Source: a bacterium
GTDB taxonomy: Bacteria; SZUA-182; DTGQ01
NCBI GenBank assembly: GCA_023512255.1
Contig: JAILZY010000080.1
Coordinates: 1-15,691, forward strand
Length of the DNA: 15,691 bases
Direction: 5' to 3'
Shown: positions 1,255-13,706 of the stretch, one piece after another
Position numbering within the stretch: position 1 is the stretch's first letter
Layout: every line of letters starts with the position of its first letter
Program-made: the position numbers and the translations under genes
Notes under the pieces: model-generated
What the model was told of the DNA's origin: nothing
The model's input: the letters and a program-made list of their open reading frames with translations, nothing else
The model's database searches: none

Positions 1255-1986
1255 GGCAAGGGAACTTCCAAAAAATAGAGCAGGGCGACTTGCGGATCGC
1301 AAACAAACGGGCAGCCCCGCACGACGTCGATTGCCAGTAGGAGCTCCGCTGGAGAACGAAATGCGGCCAAATCCGCGGGGAGAAACCGCGCTCCACGCAG
1401 GTCAACTTCCGGACAATTCCCTCGTCGTCTCCGTTGTCCGCATAGCCGATGAGGAGCCTGTCGACGGTCTCAACTGAAAGGCCGTACTTGGACCGGAGCC
1501 ATTCGAGGACCTCGGGATTCTCCTTGAGCCGCACGTGATAGTGTTCCGCCAGGGCTGTCAGCACATCGTGGACGCGCAACTAGACCAGGCGTTCCGCCTC
1601 CGCTTCGGCCAATTCCTCGAGTGAGAGTCCGTGCTTGGCCAAAGACGGCAATCCGGCCTTGGCCGCGAGGAAATCGCGGGCATGCTGATGGCTCTCCGGC
1701 ATGGGGCCGGGCTGGCCCCGGGTACCCGGCCTGACTGGATGAACTCCACGAGCTGTAGTACGTCGCCGACGACGCCGCAGCCGAAGCAATACCAACCCTG
1801 CTTGTCGAGCATGACATGGAGGGAACGGTGCGATTGGCTTTTATGGTTCGGGCAGTCGCATTAGAGCAGGCGGTCGGATTCGTGCAGAACGTGAACGCCG
1901 AGCATTTCCCGCGCGACCGCGCCGATGTCGACCTCGGTGATCCGCCGGTAATACTCCCTCGCGTTGTCCTGACGCTCGAATGCCAT
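1251..1986 (-). pseudogene. Decayed CHC2 zinc-finger primase-like gene (mobile-element replication protein)
   Basis: Reading from an ATG at 1986 with GGAG 10 nt upstream, codons 45-70 spell a DnaG-type CHC2 zinc ribbon: C45-P-N-H48, then W-Y-C67-F-G-C70-G followed by V-V-G-D and L-V-E-F. Such domains open bacterial, phage and plasmid primases. The frame is broken several times. There is an in-frame TAA at codon 42 (1861-1863), just before the zinc ribbon. A frame change near 1720-1740 leads into a frame reading ARDFLAAKAGL...LEELAEAEAERL. An in-frame TAG at 1580-1582 follows, after which the same frame resumes with RVHDVLTALAEHY. A second frame change near 1395-1400 precedes a final TGA at 1251. 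No Toprim catalytic domain follows, so the 3' part is also missing or was never present. Four independent lesions argue against one sequencing error. It is divergent from the HTH gene and shares the tandem-repeat control region with it. Confidence 0.8.
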
Positions 1987-2068
1987 GCGCGCTACGCTCC
2001 AAGGAAAAACTTGACCACTCGTTACTTACCGACGGGATGGCCTTTTTGCCGAAGAGTTGATTTCGCAC

Positions 2069-2096
2069 TTGCCTTTCTGTCGAAATCTGCTATATA
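2069..2096 (+). promoter_or_regulatory. Candidate promoter of the HTH-methyltransferase cluster
   Basis: TTGCCT (2069-2074) and TATATA (2091-2096) are separated by 16 nt and point towards the HTH gene at 2153. The -10 lies inside the first copy of the 22-bp tandem repeat, so a protein bound to that repeat would cover the promoter. This is inferred from hexamer matches only. Confidence 0.35.
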
Positions 2097-2129
2097 TTAC
2101 TATTACTTCTGCTATATATTACTATTACT
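2086..2129. repeat. Two perfect 22-bp tandem repeats, operator- or iteron-like
   Basis: A 22-bp A/T-rich unit beginning TCTGCTATATATTAC occurs at 2086-2107 and is repeated exactly at 2108-2129. It lies in the divergent gap between the primase pseudogene and the excisionase-like HTH gene. Two abutting copies at a divergent promoter fit an autoregulatory operator, an excisionase binding site, or what remains of replication iterons. The sequence does not decide between these. Confidence 0.85.
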
Positions 2130-2152
2130 AACGAGCGACGGACAATGACGAG

Positions 2153-2356
2153 ATGGAAAAGAACATCATGACGAACTGGCTGACACTCGAAAGAGCGGCG
2201 AAATACCTGAAAATGGGCGAGTCCACCCTTTACGACCTCGCCCGCAAGCGGAGCGTCCCCGCCCACAAGATGGGCTGGGAGTGGCGGTTCGATGCGGAGG
2301 AGCTTGACGAATGGCTCAAAGCCGGAAAACTGGCCTTGCTGGAACAAAAGGAGTAA
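2153..2356 (+). CDS. Excisionase-like helix-turn-helix DNA-binding protein
   Basis: The 67-residue protein is almost entirely one winged-HTH domain of the excisionase/MerR-like type (HTH_17). Residues 8-30 carry the W-L-T-L-E-x-A-A-x-Y-L helix followed by the turn and recognition helix (M-G-E-S-T-L-Y-D-L-A). A wing P-A-H-K-M-G...W-R-F and the C-terminal D-E-W-L complete the fold. Family members bind att sites as recombination directionality factors or act as small regulators in phages, integrative elements and toxin-antitoxin loci. The most likely target here is the 22-bp tandem repeat just upstream. The first ATG has little Shine-Dalgarno sequence; a second in-frame ATG at 2168 sits about 10 nt after GGAAAAG and could be the real start. 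The reading frame ends in TAATG, abutting the next small frame. No integrase is present in the window. Confidence 0.8.
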   Translation: MEKNIMTNWLTLERAAKYLKMGESTLYDLARKRSVPAHKMGWEWRFDAEELDEWLKAGKLALLEQKE

Positions 2357-2361
2357 TGAAA

Positions 2362-2460
2362 ATGAAACAGGATCACGGCAAGGAATGCGGATACCGCGTC
2401 CTCGCCGTCAACAAAGCCGGCGAAGGCGAACCCAACAACACCATCATGGCAGTGCTGTAA
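2362..2460 (+). pseudogene. Stump of a fibronectin type III domain (C-terminal end only)
   Basis: A 32-residue frame begins at the ATG at 2362, eight nt after AGGAG; an alternative in-frame ATG at 2356 overlaps the HTH stop codon. Apart from its first nine or so residues it reads like the last two strands of a fibronectin-III domain: Y-R-V-L-A-V-N-K-A-G-E-G-E-P-N-N-T-I-M-A-V-L, then stop. That pattern (YRVxAVNxAGEGEPSNT) is typical of Fn3 domain C-termini, where it would normally be preceded by about 65 more residues. This looks like a gene whose 5' part was deleted so that the tail now follows the HTH gene. It could still be translated, but a lone fragment would not fold as Fn3. Confidence 0.6.
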
Positions 2461-2482
2461 TGAGTCAATAAAGGCATGCGAT

Positions 2483-3400
2483 ATGATAACGGGCAGGTCA
2501 CTACCTCATCCTATTCCATACCAAGGCAGCAAGAGGGCCTTGGCGCACAGAATATTAGCGCTTTTCCCCAAGGAAAAGGTGCGGCTGTTTGAACCTTTCG
2601 CGGTTTCCGCCGCCGTATCGATTGCGGCTGTCGCCAACGGTAAAGCCATGAGCGTTGTGCTCAACGATGCAAACGAGCCTTTGATGCTTCTTTGGAAAAG
2701 GATCATCGAAGAACCAGACCGTCTACTGGCAAGTTATGAAAAGCTCTGGAATGCCCAAATGGGAGATGAGCGCAAGTACTACGACTATGTTCGTAATAAG
2801 TTCAACAAGACGCATAATCCTGACCTCTTGTTTTATCTGCTAGCCAGATGTGTCAAGGCGTCAGTGCGGTATAATGCAAATGGCGAGTTTAACCAAAGTC
2901 CCGACAATCGCCGCAAAGGTGCGAAGCCTCAGACTATGGCTAAGCATGTCTATGGGGCGTCGCAACTACTCAATGGAATCACCGTCATTCAATGCGGTGA
3001 TTTTCGAAAGGCTATAGCCGATGCGACACCCAAAAATGTTATTTACATGGACCCACCCTATCAGGGCGTTTGCGGGAGACGCGATAATCGTTATTTTGAA
3101 GGGTTGCTTTTCAAGGATTTCGTGACAGCGCTCGAAGAGATGAACCGCAAGCGACTTTCCTTCATCATCAGCTATGATGGCCGAACTGGAGAAAAATCTT
3201 ATGGTGAGATGTTGCCGGAACACTTGCATTTGACTCATATCGAGGTCGAAGCCGGTGTTTCTTCGCAAGCCACCCTTTTGGGAAGAACCGCTCAAACTAT
3301 TGAGTCCCTTTACGTGTCGCCAGCCCTTGTGAAGCGCATCCTGATTTCGAACATTGAACGAACACAGCCAGCGAAACAGGCTCAACTCTCTCTGTTCTGA
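2483..3400 (+). CDS. D12-class (Dam-like) DNA adenine N6-methyltransferase, possibly impaired
   Basis: This 305-residue protein would transfer a methyl group from AdoMet to the N6 of adenine in a specific DNA site. Landmarks are P-Y-Q-G-S-K-R at 12-18, motif I around F-E-P-F-A-V-S-A-A-V (36-45), N-D-A-N-E-P (61-66), the catalytic motif IV D-P-P-Y at 190-193 preceded by Y-M, and S-Y-D-G-R-T-G (230-236). The order and length fit a complete alpha-group enzyme. In motif I the Gly expected after F-A is Val41 (codon GTT), a position that normally contacts AdoMet, so activity is uncertain. The start ATG has AAAGG eight nt upstream. It is the third frame of the plus-strand cluster after the HTH gene and the Fn3 stump, and is followed nine nt past its own GAAGG by the start of a truncated gene. 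It is probably the methylation half of a former restriction-modification locus or an orphan methylase on a mobile element. Confidence 0.88.
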   Translation: MITGRSLPHPIPYQGSKRALAHRILALFPKEKVRLFEPFAVSAAVSIAAVANGKAMSVVLNDANEPLMLLWKRIIEEPDRLLASYEKLWNAQMGDERKYYDYVRNKFNKTHNPDLLFYLLARCVKASVRYNANGEFNQSPDNRRKGAKPQTMAKHVYGASQLLNGITVIQCGDFRKAIADATPKNVIYMDPPYQGVCGRRDNRYFEGLLFKDFVTALEEMNRKRLSFIISYDGRTGEKSYGEMLPEHLHLTHIEVEAGVSSQATLLGRTAQTIESLYVSPALVKRILISNIERTQPAKQAQLSLF

Positions 3401-3412
3401 AGGTAGATCTCG

Positions 3413-3529
3413 ATGTCAAAGAATATCCCACAAGATATACTCACTATGCTTTTGCATTTTTTCTCCAAGGCCTTGATTTTACTGGATTTGCTATTAGAGG
3501 TAACTTTCTTAAGGATGTCAAGGCGCTAA
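3413..3529 (+). pseudogene. 5' stump of the gene that followed the methyltransferase, fused to repeat sequence
   Basis: An ATG at 3413 with GAAGG nine nt upstream opens a frame beginning M-S-K-N-I-P-Q-D-I-L-T-M-L. After about 12-14 codons it runs into the dispersed smr-leader repeat (from 3448), which it reads backwards as a Leu/Phe-rich stretch until TAA at 3527-3529. The good ribosome site and tight coupling to the methyltransferase suggest a real downstream gene, plausibly a restriction endonuclease by position, that was cut off by the rearrangement. The stump is too short to identify a family; the endonuclease idea rests only on context. Confidence 0.45.
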
Positions 3530-3552
3530 GAAATTTCTGCAAAAGTGTAGAT
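3448..3552 (-). repeat. Second copy of the smr promoter, leader and first codons
   Basis: This segment aligns almost end to end with 13267-13370, the region that starts the smr gene on the minus strand. It differs by scattered substitutions and a 2-nt gap. Read on the minus strand it holds a promoter, the ribosome site GGAGAAAAA and then ATG-CAA-AAG, matching GTG-CAA-AAG of smr. The similarity stops within codon 4, where island sequence takes over. The frame opened here is only 13 codons long, so no protein of note is made. Confidence 0.85.
3493..3521 (-). promoter_or_regulatory. Sigma-70 promoter in the duplicated smr leader
   Basis: On the minus strand TTGACA (complement of 3516-3521) and TCTAAT (complement of 3493-3498) are separated by exactly 17 nt, close to an ideal housekeeping promoter. 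It would fire leftwards into the 3' end of the methyltransferase gene, giving an RNA antisense to it. The homologous boxes at smr are weaker. Confidence 0.5.
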
Positions 3553-3758: not shown

Positions 3759-4004
3759 CTGGTTCTTTCGCTAACAAAGCGCGAAATTTGGGCGGCCATA
3801 AGGGCCGCCCCTACAATTGATTTGGTAATTGGATCTGCTCTCGCACTTAGAGATAGAAGCACTAGCTGGTTCTTTCTAACAAAGTGCGCAAGCTGCGGTG
3901 GGTACAAGGTCCGCCCCTACAATTGATAGCACAGCCCCTACAATTGATAGCACAATTGATACGCTGCGCAGTTGTGTTGCGCACTTGGCGATAGAACTAC
4001 TAAC
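3759..4004. repeat. Two adjacent copies (A and B) of a ~105-140 bp interspersed repeat
   Basis: Copy A (3759-3864) and copy B (3866-4004) both begin CTGGTTCTTTC, continue TAACAAAG, carry CCGCCCCTACAATTGAT in the middle, and end with a GCACTT-GATAGAA-CACTA-type block. Copy A holds a perfect palindrome GGGCGGCC-ATAAG-GGCCGCCC (3790-3810). Copy B contains an exact 21-bp tandem duplication (3913-3933 and 3934-3954). A third copy lies at 12431-12548 and a partial one at 7471-7504. Small non-coding mobile or REP-like units are the likeliest explanation. The intervening open frame at 3898-4107 is just repeat read-through. Confidence 0.75.
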
Positions 4005-7470: not shown

Positions 7471-7504
7471 GGTAATATTTTCCCTTAGCGATAGAACCAC
7501 TTAG
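7471..7504. repeat. Partial copy of the interspersed repeat (right end)
   Basis: GGTAAT followed by CTTAGCGATAGAACCACTTAG matches the right end of copies A and C (3844-3864 and 12524-12548). The left part, with TAACAAAG and CAATTGAT, is missing. It ends about 12 bp from the stop codon of the PKD-protein gene. Confidence 0.65.
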
Positions 7505-12241: not shown

Positions 12242-12823
12242 CTCTTCTATCTCCTTTCTGATCTAGCTCTTATGACAGCATAACTAGGTAAAAAAACTAA
12301 TTTTTTTAAGTGTGGTTTTGTAAAAGTCTCTGACTCCTCCCTCCCTTCTCTTATAACGGAATGGCTGAATTGATCTTTTTTGATGGATAAGCGCTCTTTA
12401 CCTAGGCATGGGGTTAATAGCAAAAAGAAATTGGTCCTCTTGTTAACAAAAACAAAATGCGCAATTTGGACGAACCCCCTTGTGTCTGCCCATACAATTG
12501 ATTGTGTAATTTGATCTGCTCTCGCACTTAGCGATAGAACCACTTAGCAAAAGAACCAAAATACCCCCAACTATGGTAAAATCTTTAATCGAGTGTCATA
12601 ATGTAAGGATACGCAATTCAAAGGCAAAAATATCGAAAAGTTGATATTAAAAAAAGTGTGATATTCTATTCGGCTGGAATAAAAAAATTACCTACAAGAA
12701 AAATGAGAAAATAGATAAAAAATTTATGGTCTTGAAAAATGGGAAGAAAAGTTAGGCAAGATCAATAGGTTTTTAAGCGATGTGCTAGGATATGCTAGAG
12801 AGATGTTTTGTGCAGGTAGAGGA
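12242..12823. other. Gene-poor spacer upstream of the PKD-protein gene
   Basis: The 582-bp gap contains the ribosome site of the PKD-protein gene (complement of 12251-12257), an A/T near-palindrome (AAAAAAA-CTAA-TTTTTTT around 12291-12308) and interspersed copy C at 12431-12548. From 12549 to 12823 it is A-rich sequence in which I see no gene or structure. An open frame at 12247-12543 begins inside the repeat and has no recognisable protein features. Confidence 0.6.
12431..12548. repeat. Copy C of the interspersed repeat
   Basis: It follows the order of copies A and B: TTGGTCCTCTTG, TAACAAA, AATGCGCAATTTGG, TACAATTGATT, TTGATCTGCTCTCGCACTTA, and ending GCGATAGAACCACTTAGC. It is in the same orientation as copies A and B but lacks the GC-rich palindrome core, where the sequence reads CGAACCCCCTTGTGTCTGCC. 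Confidence 0.75.
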
Positions 12824-13276
12824 TTAGTACTCCATCTCCTCCCTGGTGTGGAAAGCCTGGACGGTAGGCTTCCACCAATTTGGACCCTGCTCGGAATTCA
12901 GCCAGCGGATAACGGCTTCCCTTAGCACTGATTTGCGCCCCTGGGAGTGGATTCCTCTGCCAGTAATGATCGTTAGGGTGAGACGGCCCCGTTTAATTGA
13001 CAGGCGGCAAAATTGCTCAAGCCGGCTTATGGCTTCCCCGCGGGCTAGGCCGTGCAAGTCTAAAGTAGCCGCAGCCTGCTCTCCTTCGCCCCGAAGGGAA
13101 GAGGATCTTTGTTTTCGCCTGGTGAAAGTGCGGGTTTCGACAGGATCAAACTTTTCGTTGATTAAATCGCTTCCAAACTTTCCAAGTGAGTTTACCGCTT
13201 CTAGGAAAAGCTGTTTTTCCTCTTCGGAAATATCAGAAGGTTTGTTTTTTCTTTTTTTTCTTGGAGGCTTTTGCAC
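12824..13276 (-). CDS. Smr-domain protein (MutS2 C-terminal type putative endonuclease)
   Basis: The 150-residue protein has a Lys/Arg-rich N-terminus (residues 2-12), a helical spacer, and an Smr domain from about 70 to 145. Key motifs are L-D-L-H-G-L (72-77) and I-I-T-G-R-G-I-H-S (103-111), followed by V-L-R-E-A-V-x-x-W-L. Smr domains nick or bind nucleic acid; stand-alone small Smr proteins are linked to DNA repair or to rescue of stalled ribosomes, and this sequence does not decide which. The usual Gly-rich G-A-L-Y-V ending is absent: the protein stops shortly after V-Q-A-F-H-T-R-E. The start is a GTG at 13276, supported by GGAG five to six nt upstream and by the matching ATG in the duplicated leader at 3457. 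It appears to be transcribed alone. Confidence 0.85.
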   Translation of the reverse strand: MQKPPRKKRKNKPSDISEEEKQLFLEAVNSLGKFGSDLINEKFDPVETRTFTRRKQRSSSLRGEGEQAAATLDLHGLARGEAISRLEQFCRLSIKRGRLTLTIITGRGIHSQGRKSVLREAVIRWLNSEQGPNWWKPTVQAFHTREEMEY

Positions 13277-13370
13277 TTTTTCTCCGAACCATTGATTTTA
13301 CTGGATTTGCTATTAGAGATAACTTTCAAGGATTTCAAAGCGTTAAAAAATTTCTGCAAAAATTTAGATA
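13267..13370 (-). repeat. smr leader copy of the duplicated ~105-bp segment
   Basis: The segment covers the first codons, ribosome site, untranslated leader and promoter of smr. It is matched by 3448-3552. Conserved blocks include GCTTTTGCA, TTTTTCTCC, the 24-nt block TTGATTTTACTGG/ATTTGCTATTA, AACTTTC, AAGGAT and AAATTTCTGCAAAA. This is the presumed parent copy because it still leads into an intact gene. Confidence 0.85.
13312..13338 (-). promoter_or_regulatory. Candidate promoter of smr
   Basis: TTGAAA (complement of 13333-13338) and TCTAAT (complement of 13312-13317) occupy the same places as the near-ideal boxes in the duplicated leader. The spacer here is 15 nt instead of 17, so it is predicted to be weaker. 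The call relies on conservation between the two copies. Confidence 0.4.
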
Positions 13371-13468
13371 TTTATATAAGATTCGATATTTAATTTATAT
13401 ATTTATCATATACTTGAGGAGAGATTATCGTCAATCTTTTTCGCTCTCATATAACCGATACGCTCTTA

Positions 13469-13512
13469 TATATCAGACACCATAAACCCTATATCAGAAC
13501 AACCATAAACCC
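13469..13512. repeat. Imperfect 21/23-nt tandem repeat
   Basis: TATATCAGACACCATAAACCC is followed directly by the same unit with two extra bases before CCATAAACCC. It lies between the smr promoter region and the kinase 3' end. Its function is unknown. Confidence 0.65.
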
Positions 13513-13525
13513 TCGAAGGGGCTTA

Positions 13526-13572
13526 GCTCTTATTAAGGTTATGTCTCTTAATGGTAGCTAATAAATAAGAGC
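13526..13572. other. Possible hairpin in the smr-kinase spacer
   Basis: GCTCTTATT (13526-13534) and AATAAGAGC (13564-13572) form a 9-bp perfect stem enclosing 29 nt that itself has CTTAA/TTAAG-like elements. On the minus strand it lies downstream of the kinase gene, and without a U-run it is a doubtful terminator. Confidence 0.35.
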
Positions 13573-13706
13573 GAACCGATATAAGCGACCAACTATAATG
13601 AGTTATAGCATTCTGGTTGGGATAATCGATCGCCATTGTCCATCGCTACGTCATTATGCAAAGTTATAAACCTTTGTGGCCAGACACTTAGTCAAAGGCA
13701 TTTTTT

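Follow-up and report, generated by a model that had tools for sequence, protein, structure and literature searches.

Two similar stretches of about 105 bp in the window (the whole 15,691-nt stretch of DNA analysed here) are copies of a genome-wide MITE family and not an smr-specific duplication. The family is new, was active recently and has IS701-type ends. Very probably, the observations are explained by a ~105-bp MITE for which an IS701-family transposase acted in trans and which inserted at two places in the window, at one of which it appears to have supplied the start of smr. A recently active MITE family thus replaces what had looked like a puzzling two-copy promoter duplication.

The two window copies (3444-3550 and 13267-13367; Table 1) share ~88% identity and align in register, with 61 nt at 90% and 43 nt at 86% separated by a 2-nt indel (repeat finder; blastn E = 1e-28). 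Their local alignment scores 149, whereas 1000 dinucleotide shuffles average 26 (sd 5) and reach at most 48; this confirms that the similarity described in the initial annotation is real, and the extents given there (3448-3552 and 13267-13370) need only small corrections to the coordinates above. Contrary to that description, the end of the match does not coincide with the beginning of island sequence: copy 1 starts 43 bp past the methyltransferase stop (3400), and the flanking DNA is A/T-rich. Copy 2 overlaps the smr start and has lost the hairpin fold, and a target duplication is absent at both copies. As dozens more copies occur at unrelated genome sites, the pair can be explained without any assembly join. 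The surroundings of the copies contain further repeats and putative mobile DNA. The window contains four occurrences (3807-3863, 12488-12544, 7484-7504, and 3984-4004) of a short repeat, GCACTTAGCGATAGAACCACT, which is accompanied by CCCCTACAATTGAT and also present at a few other loci. The GC-rich region at 1255-3400 (up to 64% vs. ~45%) has the appearance of a remnant of a mobile element; it contains an HTH excisionase-like gene that matches MADS1 weakly, below the cut-off, and the Dam-family methyltransferase, itself barely above its cut-off.

Table 1. Window features and terminal sequences relevant to the MITE copies
Feature	Position	Strand	Evidence or remark
Copy 1, complete MITE, subfamily A, 107 bp	3444..3550	+	95% to consensus, two TIRs, hairpin fold
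Left TIR of copy 1, CTATGCTTTTGCA	3444..3456	+	Alignment of >30 genomic copies
Right TIR of copy 1, CTACACTTTTGCA (as - strand)	3538..3550	-	TIR pattern search of genome
Copy 2, older subfamily A MITE, first 4 bases missing	13267..13367	+	91% to consensus positions 5-105
smr, Smr domain, 150 aa by ORF annotation	12824..13276	-	Pfam PF01713, E 1.3e-12
Predicted GTG start codon of smr, within MITE TIR	13274..13276	-	Sole ATG/GTG/TTG ahead of codon 74
GGAG ribosome-site-like motif, MITE-derived	13282..13286 (+/-1)	-	Direct reading: TTCGGAGAAAAAGTG
Dam-family adenine methyltransferase, adjoins copy 1, outside MITE	2483..3400	+	TIGR00571, 117.7 bits vs. cut-off 114.85; PF02086
Second, unrelated MITE, 113 bp, TIR CGCTCTTAT...AATAAGAGCG, 8-bp TSD AACCGATA	13461..13573		smr leader
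Outward-reading TIR end with predicted start codon			GGAGAAAAAGTG
Ends expected of the putative IS701-type parent			CTAYACTTTTGCA

A search with the segment through its own genome (a draft of 3.83 Mb in 172 contigs, 96.6% complete) revealed many more copies: at least 42 matches had E <= 10, and this search scored 40 out of 130 candidates. A 34-nt core gave 45 matches at <= 3 mismatches compared to 0 in the reversed control, and the 13-nt TIR gave 112 matches at <= 1 mismatch compared to 2. Together, the copies collected through searches and genome stretches place the MITE at about 80 places in the genome, with 51 copies intact. The element is ~105 bp long (104-108 bp), has no coding capacity and no transposase gene, forms a hairpin over nearly its whole length (RNA z -4.95), and is bounded by 13-bp TIRs (CTATGCTTTTGCA...TGCAAAAGTGTAG) that are identical at 11 of 13 positions in subfamily A. 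Aligned copies start with CTATGCTTTTGCACTTTTT and finish with AAATTTCTGCAAAAGTGTAG, and the flanks immediately outside are unrelated. Perfect target duplications of 6-9 bp were found at 31 of the 49 intact copies with both flanks (6 bp, n = 16; 7 bp, n = 7; 8 bp, n = 7; 9 bp, n = 1), while randomly paired flanks give them in <2% of cases. Shortness without a transposase, TIRs, target duplications, and many dispersed copies identify the repeat as a MITE. There are two subfamilies, with B being ~80-84% identical to A; six subfamily B copies are 100% identical, indicating that the MITE moved recently. Several contigs terminate within MITE copies, and such repeats are known to break draft assemblies. 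The MITE is absent from a same-genus genome (a sister species) and from the other class-level relatives searched, where a distant genome gave the single match, which was weak and partial. This absence indicates a recent spread in the present lineage. In a plasmid collection, no MITE matches were found and IS701 proteins were distant only (<30% among the matches listed).

The parent transposon is likely an IS701-type element, as judged from terminal sequences that the MITE has in common with archaeal IS701-type elements. A one-genome-per-species scan for CTAYRCTTTTGCACTTTTT identified same-ended MITEs of 104-172 bp whose interiors differ; they occur in Nitrospirae, Deltaproteobacteria, Desulfobacterales, Bacillota, and Poribacteria, among others. 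A TIR of 13-19 bp is common to MITEs of unrelated interior in many bacterial phyla (L170-L249). Of 44 such pairs from other phyla, 26 have perfect 6-8-bp TSDs (0.3% in the control). In archaea related to methanogens, the same TIRs enclose a 1492-bp element in Methanosarcinales (L173, 3675-5166) and a 1454-bp element in Methanophagales (L205, 93-1546). The former encodes an intact 442-aa transposase matching NF049999 (IS701_3, IS701 family) with 267.7 bits (cut-off 170); the frame of the latter is interrupted. The right end of both archaeal elements matches the MITE (ATTTCTGCAAAAGTRTAG), though it fell outside the search pattern, and no clean target duplication was found at either element. Furthermore, an IS701-like transposase remnant in a genome of the same family ends in CTCTACTTTTGCACTTTTT. 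In the 96.6%-complete draft of the window's genome, no autonomous element with the MITE ends was found, and for this reason the parent is deduced from what other organisms carry; the genome may have lost such a partner, or the assembly may have collapsed it where contigs end. Other candidates for the parent were rejected: DDE_Tnp_1 transposases at three places in the genome carry no MITE TIRs, and an IS701-like remnant (C135) has no TIRs nearby. In other MITE-rich genomes, the surroundings of IS701-type transposases showed one TIR-like end in UR.bin48 (L294) and no TIRs in Poribacteria and Nitrospirae. A text search of a literature library found the TIR sequences in no paper, and a limited literature search found no report of MITEs of IS701-type parentage; the same-ended MITEs with unrelated interiors in several bacterial phyla can now be linked to IS701-type transposons.

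In the proposed mechanism, an IS701-family transposase would recognise the 13-19-bp ends CTAYRCTTTTGCACTTTTT / CTAYACTTTTGCAGAAATT and move the MITE in trans, duplicating 6-9 bp (mostly 6-8) of an A/T-rich target. One window copy would have inserted downstream of the methyltransferase gene, at the 43-bp distance given above, and the second, older copy at the expected native start of smr, which may now be read from a MITE-provided start codon. The GTG and codons 2-3 of smr are MITE sequence, an in-frame TAA lies eight codons upstream of the GTG, also within the MITE, and the next in-frame start candidate, the TTG of codon 74, lies within the Smr domain. Read outward, the TIR gives AAAAA-GTG-CAA-AAG-(C/T)AT-AG, which is free of stops and preceded by a GGAG-like motif; thus, the MITE appears to lend smr its start codon. 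The smr homologues of two relatives have their own ATG, a basic N-terminus, and no MITE. Of the start signals that the initial annotation ascribed to a mobile unit, the predicted ribosome site and start codon can be retained and the promoter cannot. At its 3' end, smr is frameshifted near 12,885 (~12880-12890) compared to the relatives, with the homologous C-terminal strand GVLILYL in another frame, and for this reason the gene may be decaying, unless the frameshift is a draft-assembly error. The second MITE in the smr leader lies just upstream of the first. Its family has further copies at many genome loci, one of them inserted within a first-family copy (L150/L082), and its ends recall the ISNha5 group of IS1595.

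A second case is found on contig 45 (C45), where a subfamily B MITE with a 9-bp duplication interrupts an exosortase/archaeosortase-like gene within its N-terminal codons. When the flanks are rejoined, the earlier reading frame reappears and has ATGs at 13 and 19 codons upstream; the frame from these native ATGs now stops within the MITE, and a frame of 504 codons, which runs as far as the sequence examined, opens at the MITE GTG. A same-genus homologue, 73% identical, starts at its own ATG. With its native N-terminus split, this gene, like smr, is predicted to be read from the MITE GTG. Start-codon capture at these two genes, as deduced from their reading frames, would be the surprising residue of an otherwise familiar picture, and it provides two testable cases of a transposon terminal repeat putatively turned into a gene start codon. 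One might go further and view the TIR as a portable translation-start module (GGAG-AAAAA-GTG-CAA-AAG, stop-free outward) that rescues genes whose starts were destroyed by insertion. We consider this generalisation rather doubtful; if true, it would yield proteins with the N-terminus M-Q-K-(H/Y/P). The start codon that the MITE appears to lend to smr is a small variation on an otherwise common type of element.

Among the alternatives, a mobile promoter cassette, i.e. a unit that spreads by placing a promoter and start codon before genes, fares best and is still improbable. The sequence TTGACA-17-TCTAAT is present in copy 1, and smr and the exosortase-like gene are predicted to be read out from the TIR GTG. 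However, the hexamers noted as a better promoter in copy 1 do not form a strong conserved signal: the -10 box lacks the key A (A2), the spacer varies between 15, 16, and 17 nt among copies, and the 17-nt length is restricted to a small number of copies that carry 2 additional nt. A simple promoter scan found none inside either window copy and, at smr, one candidate (13434-13405, - strand) that lies upstream of the MITE. Neighbouring genes of the sampled copies, counted as simple long ORFs, also show no orientation bias (left side, 25 away and 36 toward; right side, 29 and 30), and preferential insertion upstream of genes in promoter orientation was not found in this sample. As orientation bias is absent, the cassette idea is unsupported genome-wide, and from the earlier proposal of a promoter-carrying unit inserted at both places only the mobile unit survives.

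Even less probable is a non-transposon reading, in which selection would have maintained a structured regulatory RNA or a REP-like sequence at many loci. The strong hairpin and the intergenic position of the copies would fit such a role, but Rfam gave no match within the window, the copies have target duplications, their TIRs recur in IS701 elements, some young copies are identical, and the sister species lacks the MITE. While MITE copies may have acquired a regulatory role later, the target duplications speak against a regulatory origin. The earlier suggestion that insertion of the methyltransferase island broke an ancestral smr at 3448, of which the promoter and first codons remained, can practically be dismissed: the stretch at 3448-3552 does resemble the smr 5' region, but this likeness is confined to the MITE, dozens of loci without smr carry the same stretch, the smr of relatives lacks the MITE, and copy 1 is a complete element with both TIRs beyond which no smr coding sequence follows.

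The MITE reading favoured here has parallels and differences among known systems. Archaeal members of the IS701 family (NF049999, IS701_3) carry the terminal sequences of the present MITE, which itself lacks a transposase and has duplications variable between 6 and 9 bp; IS701 itself generates 4-bp duplications. The RUP and BOX elements of Streptococcus pneumoniae are likewise ~100-bp, non-autonomous, genome-scattered repeats. RUP is linked to IS630 and has TA duplications, in contrast to the 6-9-bp duplications and IS701-type ends found here. The Correia elements (CREE) of Neisseria, which also have TA duplications, resemble the present family as many-copy hairpin MITEs of similar size and differ in their TIR. 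With ~100-155 bp and many copies, these hairpin-forming MITEs influence neighbouring genes through promoters (PMC10969869), which have been shown experimentally in CREE and are unsupported here. QMITE1 of Coxiella and the Rickettsia palindromic elements are MITEs that contribute to host reading frames (PMC10969869). Whereas those elements fuse into ORFs, the TIR of the present MITE would provide a start codon together with a ribosome-site-like motif.
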